Of a DNA stretch of 43,751 nucleotides, positions 66 to 37,472 are shown in pieces. Under the pieces are notes generated by a model that saw only the letters and a list, made by a program, of their open reading frames with translations, was not told the origin of the DNA and searched no databases. How positions within the stretch are numbered: position 1 is the stretch's first letter; every line of letters begins with the position of its first letter. Source of the stretch: Bacteroidota bacterium (GTDB lineage: Bacteria > Bacteroidota > Ignavibacteria > Ignavibacteriales > Melioribacteraceae); assembly GCA_021812705.1 (NCBI GenBank), contig JAKAMT010000006.1, forward strand, positions 1 through 43,751. The letters are read 5' to 3'. The position numbers were made by a program, and so were the translations under genes.

Positions 66-404
66 GTGGAGGTTGCGGGAGTCGAATCAGCCTTCGGCTG
101 ACAAGCTTTAATCGACTTCGGCGATCCGCGTCCGAAACTAAAATTCAATGAACCTCTACGCACATAGTCTTTCTTTTTGTAGAGGTGGCGGGAGTCGAAT
201 CAGCCTTCGGCTGACAAGCTTTAATCGCCTTCGGCGATCCGCGTCCGAAACTAAAATTCAATGAACCTCTACGCACATAGTCTTTCTTTTTGTGGAGGTG
301 GCGGGAATCGAATCAGCCTTCGGCTGACGAGCTTTAATCGCCTTCGGCGATCCGCGTCCGAAACTAAAATTCAATGAACCTCTACGCACATAGTCTTTCT
401 TTTT
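66..404 (-). repeat. Three tandem 113-bp repeats (66-178, 179-291, 292-404), each a partial copy of the tmRNA 3' end interrupted by a ~39-bp double palindrome
   Basis: gtggaggtggcgggagtcgaa...ccgcgtccgaaactaaaattcaatgaacctctacgcacatagtctttctttt recurs at exact 113-bp period and matches 405-478 apart from the insert tcagccttcggctgacaagctttaatcgccttcggcgat. Confidence 0.95.
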
Positions 405-405
405 G

Positions 406-753
406 TGGAGGTGGCGGGAGTCGAACCCGCGTCCGAAACTAAAATTCAATGAACCTCTACGCACATAGTCTTTCTTTTAATTTCGCACCGTCAGCATCGA
501 AAGACAGATTATGCCGGAGCTATTCCGAAATTGATTTCGCCTCTTCTATCCGGAAGTTCGATTCAGCTATCACGCCAAGCGGCGTTCTGCAGATCCCGGC
601 GTGAGGGGAAATGAAGAACGGCTGCTTTAATTAAGCAGCTAAAGCGTAATTAGATTCGCCTTTTATTTTTTTTACCGTCGTTTTACGTGTCTACGGAGAA
701 CACGGTGCGCCATTCAAAGAACTATTAATCCCGTCGAAGCCAGTGTCACCCCC
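406..753 (-). ncRNA. ssrA: tmRNA (transfer-messenger RNA)
   Basis: Minus strand begins GGGGGTGACACTGGCTTCGACGGG and ends GCGGGTTCGACTCCCGCCACCTCCA. The acceptor stem GGGGGTG/CACCTCC pairs with one G.T. A tag ORF ending GESNYALAA-stop lies at 631-660, with the stop inside a hairpin (gctgctttaattaagcagc). Confidence 0.95.
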
Positions 754-36931: not shown

Positions 36932-36983
36932 AATTTATAATTTATCATTTATAATTTATCATTTATAATTTTTAATTTATAAT
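36932..36983. repeat. AT-rich 14-bp microrepeat (ataatttatcattt)
   Basis: Two perfect 14-bp units at 36937-36950 and 36951-36964, with degenerate flanking copies. Confidence 0.85.
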
Positions 36984-37472
36984 TCATTTATACGGTTGCA
37001 GATTGAAATAATCTCTGCCAATAACTACAGTTACATCGAGCAGGTAATCTTTGTTCAGCTGCTGAATGACGTTTTCATTTTTGATTCCGAGCGCTTTTGC
37101 AACCTTCAGCGCGTTAGCACTATTTCCGGTTCTGTCTATAACCAGGCTTTCCCCCACATCATCGGAAATATAATTGCCCGATTTTACCACATCCAGATTT
37201 TTGGAGCGGAGGAAATCTGTGAATTTTTCTGCAGCCCCGCCCGCGCCGCATCCGTTGAGCACCTCAACCTGAACTATTTCGCTGGCTTCTTTTTCATTGA
37301 CTGCCAGATCTTTACTCTTTCCCCCGTCGGATAATTTAATGTAAATCGAATAACCCATGTAAATTATTACCGCGGATAAAAGAATTATTGAGAAATTGAG
37401 AAACAAATTGTAGGAGGTGGATTTAAATCCTTGTCCCGATCTGGATTTTTTTTTGTCTGATTTGCCGTTCAA
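36984..37472 (-). CDS. Membrane-anchored LytR C-terminal (LytR_C) domain protein
   Basis: N-terminal TM; VQVEVLNGCGAGGAAEKFTDFLRSKNLDVVKSGN...VVIGRDY. Confidence 0.82.
   Translation of the reverse strand: MNGKSDKKKSRSGQGFKSTSYNLFLNFSIILLSAVIIYMGYSIYIKLSDGGKSKDLAVNEKEASEIVQVEVLNGCGAGGAAEKFTDFLRSKNLDVVKSGNYISDDVGESLVIDRTGNSANALKVAKALGIKNENVIQQLNKDYLLDVTVVIGRDYFNLQPYK

Follow-up and report, generated by a model that had tools for sequence, protein, structure and literature searches.

Hairpin-bearing partial copies of the tmRNA gene next to a GIY-YIG nuclease gene in a Melioribacteraceae genome, probably part of a homing-type selfish element

In a genome of the family Melioribacteraceae, the tmRNA gene (ssrA) is followed by tandem partial copies of its own 3' end, each opened in the T-arm by the same double hairpin, and on an overlapping contig these copies lead to a small GIY-YIG nuclease gene. 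This array is probably part of a homing-type GIY-YIG selfish element resident at ssrA, a reading to which we assign a probability of roughly 0.7 and which presumes that the element cuts and moves.

The window analysed (43,751 nt) comprises all of contig C16, one of 277 in the genome, with the array at the contig edge, 65 bp from its end. The tmRNA gene, the presumed target, is intact at positions 405-753 of the minus strand, encodes the tag GESNYALAA according to ARAGORN, and matches Rfam family RF00023 over its full length (176 bits, E 3.9e-70). TRF, run on the window, detected a tandem repeat at 64-425 with a period of 113 and 97% matches. Downstream of the gene's 3' end, and likewise on the minus strand, three 113-bp units occupy 404 to 66, namely copy 1, closest to the gene (292-404), copy 2 (179-291), and copy 3, the most distant (66-178). 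Each unit repeats the final 74 bases of the tmRNA region, opened in the T-arm by a 39-bp insert, which is composed of two 15-nt hairpins and a 9-nt spacer and takes the place of one T-stem base in each ssrA copy. In RNA sense the split T-arm reads GCGG/ATCGCCGAAGGCGAT-TAAAGCTTG-TCAGCCGAAGGCTGA/TTCGACTCCCGC (slashes mark split points, here and below), and the intact gene reads GCGGGTTCGACTCCCGC. The hairpin scan placed the inserts, all on the minus strand, at 313-351 in copy 1 (hairpins 313-327 and 337-351), 200-238 in copy 2 (hairpins 200-214 and 224-238) and 87-125 in copy 3, where hairpin 87-101 is perfect and 111-125 has one mismatch. A first-pass annotation had described the three tandem partial copies, the same double hairpin in the T-arm of every copy and the sequence divergences between copies, and all of these are present in the window, as seen with ARAGORN, Rfam, TRF, the hairpin scan and the sequence itself. 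Elsewhere in the window TRF reported an AATTTAT tandem repeat of 7.6 copies (36932-36984).

The nuclease gene could not be seen in the first-pass annotation because it lies just beyond the contig edge. Contig C85 (6,193 bp, locus L005) overlaps the window end in reverse orientation and contains, in order, the tmRNA interior, the ssrA 3' end, two hairpin-bearing copies, the shared flank and a GIY-YIG ORF. The flank, at 1-65 of the window (minus strand, towards the ORF), is an identical stretch in C85. The ORF has 89 codons (L005:442-711; PF01541, E 8e-12) and runs into a further hairpin-bearing ssrA 3' end (L005:672-755), so that in C85 the nuclease gene has two copies ahead of it and one behind, and C16 has three in its array. 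Since the two contigs disagree and the ssrA end beside the C85 contig end has an aberrant acceptor, the copy number of three is insecure; whether it is three or two is uncertain, and the three copies of C16 either depend on the assembly or vary within the population. This disagreement, together with the position at a contig edge, is what an assembly artefact would produce, an explanation that is hardly credible given hairpin-bearing copies on two contigs of this genome, hairpin-bearing tmRNA copies in two other genomes, and hairpin-bearing tRNA copies in a single-contig genome and in isolates.

Five more GIY-YIG genes were found in the same genome at the first search. Three of them adjoin the tRNA-Pro, tRNA-Val and tRNA-Ser genes, and each is bracketed by partial copies of its own tRNA, with short palindromes splitting an arm or standing in its place. 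Two other GIY-YIG genes of this genome (L009 and L010) lie among palindromic repeats (GTCATTCCGAGCGGAGACGAGG; TCATTCCCGCGAAAGCGGGAATC), which suggests a wider link between the GIY-YIG nuclease fold and palindromes. A partial tRNA-Gly copy with a hairpin in place of the anticodon arm was also found at L008:735-820, with no nuclease gene of its own adjacent.

The arrangement is general in the family. A profile built from five such GIY-YIG proteins had matches in 52 of the 57 Melioribacteraceae genomes, and about 100 loci were read. Of 143 nuclease genes, 117 were no more than 600 bp away from a tRNA or tmRNA gene, 94 downstream and 23 upstream of it, and all 117 shared its strand; most of the remaining nuclease genes were at contig edges beside hairpin-bearing tRNA fragments. 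A partial copy of the same tRNA was present in 80 of the 87 loci with an annotated tRNA. Fragmented assembly does not account for this, since five such loci occur in genome G018, a single 3.3-Mb contig. Identity between the partial copies and their own tRNA is 99.5%, over segments chosen by that similarity, which requires a recent origin or continual homogenisation.

Several loci show variations on this arrangement. At L057:773-2035, hairpin-bearing tRNA-Ser copies are repeated in tandem with a period of ~203 bp, several of them without a nuclease gene in between, like the window array. Two complete tRNA-Met genes surround the nuclease gene of L081 and have paired T-stem changes (CTAGGTTCAAGTCCTAG vs ACAGGTTCAAGTCCTGT), perhaps representing a hybrid target. 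GIY-YIG genes of the same kind were found inside protein genes in L096, L113 and L066, flanked by inverted repeats such as CCCGTGAGATA..TATCTCACGGG; in L096 and L113 the insertion is in a tyrosine recombinase gene, at HTFRHS/FATHLL.

Comparison of the tmRNA locus among relatives showed a conserved upstream region, with a cobalamin adenosyltransferase and then a GCV_T-family protein, and a downstream region that is empty, or occupied by this element type or by a second GIY-YIG type. Element presence at the same site is patchy, and exact hairpin-bearing tmRNA copies were found in 3 of the 164 genomes of the order with the patterns searched. The tmRNA copy of one of these genomes, G056, has a double hairpin that differs from the window's and lies precisely at TTC/GA, and G042 has a relative of the window insert whose hairpin-1 stem bases differ but remain paired. 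Unit number differs at one syntenic tRNA-Ser, where G018 carries two complete units and its sister G048 an intact tRNA with nothing more than the remnant of a nuclease gene upstream of it; searches for empty sites at tRNA-Asn and tRNA-Asp found no synteny that could be used. In G004, of the same genus, several decayed tmRNA 3'-end copies lie downstream of the tmRNA with no nuclease gene seen there (L032), apparently the remnant of an old element. The second GIY-YIG type is located directly after the tmRNA CCA end in L031, L039, L040 and L145, and consists of a conserved leader of ~130 nt, the GIY-YIG ORF and the leader repeated. This leader appears to be structured (GGCGAAGT..GAAGCCG..CTCAAAACTACGCC), had no Rfam match, and is possibly a structured RNA partner; leader-like sequence was also found 3' of the tmRNA in L016, L017, L024, L035 and L038.

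The 3' ends of ssrA genes are classic integration sites, and the first-pass annotation had proposed that the array could be stacked att-site remnants. Part of this proposal held, in that the element does lie at the ssrA 3' end and repeated partial 3' ends flank the inserted nuclease gene. However, no integrase was found among the 30 scanned window proteins or, by reading, among the C85 ORFs, and the enzyme that the loci share is a GIY-YIG nuclease. The copies also carry hairpins, which att sites do not, and other tRNA loci carry partial 5' ends, making integrase-borne islands a very improbable source. A group I intron or other known RNA element was also rejected: in the loci scanned, cmscan reported neither an intron family nor another known RNA element from Rfam, and the ORF lies outside the RNA gene, which is intact.

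The survey contained 88 distinct split points, and the sites recur per tRNA. The anticodon arm is swapped for a hairpin of similar length at 28/46 in tRNA-Val and tRNA-Pro and at 25/43 in tRNA-Lys. Other splits are at 21/22 in the D-loop of tRNA-Ser and tRNA-Arg, at 35-38 in the anticodon loop of tRNA-Ser, and at TTC/GA in the T-loop of tRNA-Ser, Glu, Lys, Pro and Ala, as in the tmRNA of G056. Some partial copies carry hairpins in two or three arms. The insert stems have a mean of 5.86 bp, against 3.18 (sd 0.09) in shuffled inserts and 3.21 at random places in the same loci, and the GC content of the inserts is 60% vs 36% in the loci. The commonest T-loop insert is composed of two 11-nt hairpins. 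Thirteen different T-loop insert sequences had 97.1% pairing and 18 two-sided changes, compared with 3.6 after shuffling and no more than 2 in slid controls; a single long hairpin instead of two was rejected, with 76.9% paired and 5 two-sided changes (slide -2). G-U pairs are absent from this T-loop double-hairpin set and are rarer in inserts than in intact tRNAs (3.7% vs 6.7%), which hints mildly that the pairing counts at the level of DNA and not of RNA.

The first-pass annotation had also suggested that the array might be a source of small RNAs resembling the tmRNA 3' end, or a REP-like palindrome that would have inserted once and been amplified together with its flank. The hairpin within each unit and the tandem amplification of the hairpin-carrying copy agree with the REP-like reading, but the palindromes are not a dispersed family. 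Hairpin motif 1 has 7 sites in the genome, 6 of them at this ssrA locus, and motif 2 has 5, all there; outside the array 6 hairpins were counted in the window, compared with about 5 in the control. At most of the tRNAs surveyed, GIY-YIG genes come with this pattern too, leaving little room for a palindrome that entered a duplicated ssrA end with no link to the nuclease. A REP/RAYT system was likewise rejected, as the motif counts and the hairpin scan did not show the genome-wide dispersal of palindromes. The sole partner gene found with the hairpins is the GIY-YIG gene.

All 17 representative nucleases contain PF01541, and the invariant residues Y5, Y16, R26, H30 and E62 are the GIY-YIG catalytic Tyr, Arg, His and Glu. 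On a tree of 183 nucleases, built from a short alignment and with many forks unresolved, the target isotype required 67 changes compared with 123.5 when shuffled (none of 200 shuffles was as low), and the hairpin arm 22 compared with 33.1. Target specificity follows the protein clade, and the Ser-targeting clades unite Ignavibacteriota, Balneolaceae and candidate-phylum bacteria. The nuclease of the window is a divergent, long-branch member of this set. That target choice tracks the protein speaks against a role at the RNA level, in which the hairpin-bearing partial tRNA would act within the nuclease mRNA or as a guide RNA directing the nuclease to the tRNA gene. The strict same-strand placement, the continued identity of the partial copies to the resident tRNA, and the maintenance of structure without sequence conservation would suit such a role; no common scaffold RNA was seen, and the scarcity of G-U pairs favours pairing at the DNA level, so that we regard it as improbable.

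The best profile matches among solved structures were UPF0213 (E 1e-15) and SLX1 (2.6e-8), which share the GIY-YIG domain, and I-TevI was far weaker. SLX1 is a structure-specific repair nuclease, and neither UPF0213 nor SLX1 is known to have a tRNA-linked element form. Because these are the nearest solved proteins, a nuclease that reads structure is a serious, if rather doubtful, alternative: the single-domain enzyme would recognise hairpins extruded from tRNA genes, and the inserted hairpins would be working parts, namely binding, insertion or decoy sites, and more than disabled cut sites. The location of the inserts in or in place of arms is consistent with this, as are the two-sided changes of the T-loop double hairpins and their lack of G-U pairs. 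On the other hand, isotype-specific protein clades imply that sequence is recognised too, and the covariation could stem from palindrome-correcting repair and not from selection.

Under the preferred homing reading, the element consists of a small single-domain GIY-YIG nuclease gene bracketed by partial 3' ends of its target. The anatomy seen fits a homing-type element, with a nuclease gene, an essential target that is retained, partial copies of that target in which one site is destroyed, and tandem amplification. The nuclease would recognise its RNA gene and cut it in a loop-encoding stretch, namely the T-loop in tmRNA and, depending on the tRNA, the D-, anticodon- or T-arm. The nuclease gene would then be inserted as the break is repaired from a copy that bears the element, keeping an intact RNA gene on one side, while the partial copies on the other side would retain homology for recombination with the presumed cut site replaced by a hairpin. 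The hairpin may mark the cut site, and the hairpin-bearing copies would escape recutting. Breaks and unequal recombination between copies could make arrays grow or shrink, with or without the nuclease gene. Counting against homing, the intact RNA gene beside the nuclease should stay cuttable, and destroying a cut site would require less than the hairpins seen, which in some copies occupy two or three arms; homing accounts neither for the escape of the intact gene nor for the use of a perfect hairpin. The divergence of the nuclease at the window array and the near-identity of the partial copies to their own tRNA also count against it.

This kind of element is apparently widespread beside tRNA and tmRNA genes in many phyla. 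In a GTDB scan with a narrower alignment, seeded with RNA-linked proteins, a tRNA lay no more than 300 bp away in 72 of the best 80 of 545 relatives, and the nearest one invariably shared the strand; about 60 of these best 80 had partial tRNA copies. These fractions describe this clade and not all GIY-YIG proteins. The isolate hosts included Zunongwangia, Flagellimonas, Flavobacterium, Pedobacter and Mucilaginibacter, and the metagenome hosts Ignavibacteriota, Balneolaceae, Acidobacteria, Chloroflexi, Planctomycetes, Margulisbacteria and several candidate phyla. A Zunongwangia atlantica isolate has four tandem 316-bp units at tRNA-Arg, and the same architecture was found in Flavobacterium, a WWE3 genome and a planctomycete genome. 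The WWE3 tRNA-Ser copy has a D-loop double hairpin arranged as in the family of the window, with different letters. A bacteria-wide mobile class is a tentative extension, in which a one-domain, structure-reading GIY-YIG nuclease would attack hairpins of tRNA and tmRNA genes and the hairpins of the copies would be active in insertion, immunity or amplification. A phage origin was rejected, as the nuclease family is nearly absent from 2.9 million viral contigs and 50,697 phage records.

Among known systems, a mobile endonuclease ORF in Allomyces atp6 reportedly carries a replacement gene end (Paquin, in 1994). The likeness is a nuclease ORF that travels with a copy of the target's end restoring the gene; the atp6 element differs in affecting a protein gene in a mitochondrion, and no hairpin-marked copies are known there. 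Hairpin elements of Allomyces and other mitochondria are short, single or double, and some are inside RNA genes (Paquin 2000 via PMC2800124); they differ in being dispersed and untied to partial gene copies and a nuclease gene. The closest studied case is SegB of phages T4/T6, a free-standing GIY-YIG homing endonuclease in the tRNA region (PMC13096335, PMC2988022), whose cut sites map to tRNA genes with the motif RAWTSGAAC and which drives tandem segmental amplification (PMC13096335). We read this motif as the opposite-strand sequence of the tRNA T-loop, which is where the tmRNA copies of the window are split. SegB shares with the present family a GIY-YIG nuclease beside tRNA genes and tandem amplification; it differs in being phage-borne, whereas the present family is chromosomal, and no hairpin-swapped partial tRNA copies are described for it in the article sections covered. 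The open-licence literature yielded no description of this arrangement in bacterial chromosomes, and one may exist elsewhere.

Stable-RNA genes are favourite landing sites of mobile DNA, usually via integrases. The elements described here point to another, apparently widespread, way of occupying them, with a nuclease gene of ~80 codons, the essential RNA gene left whole and the spare copies marked by hairpins. This would account for many orphan genes annotated as 'GIY-YIG nuclease family' and for many annotated tRNA fragments, and would offer a bacterial counterpart to phage SegB amplification, with testable predictions on cut sites.
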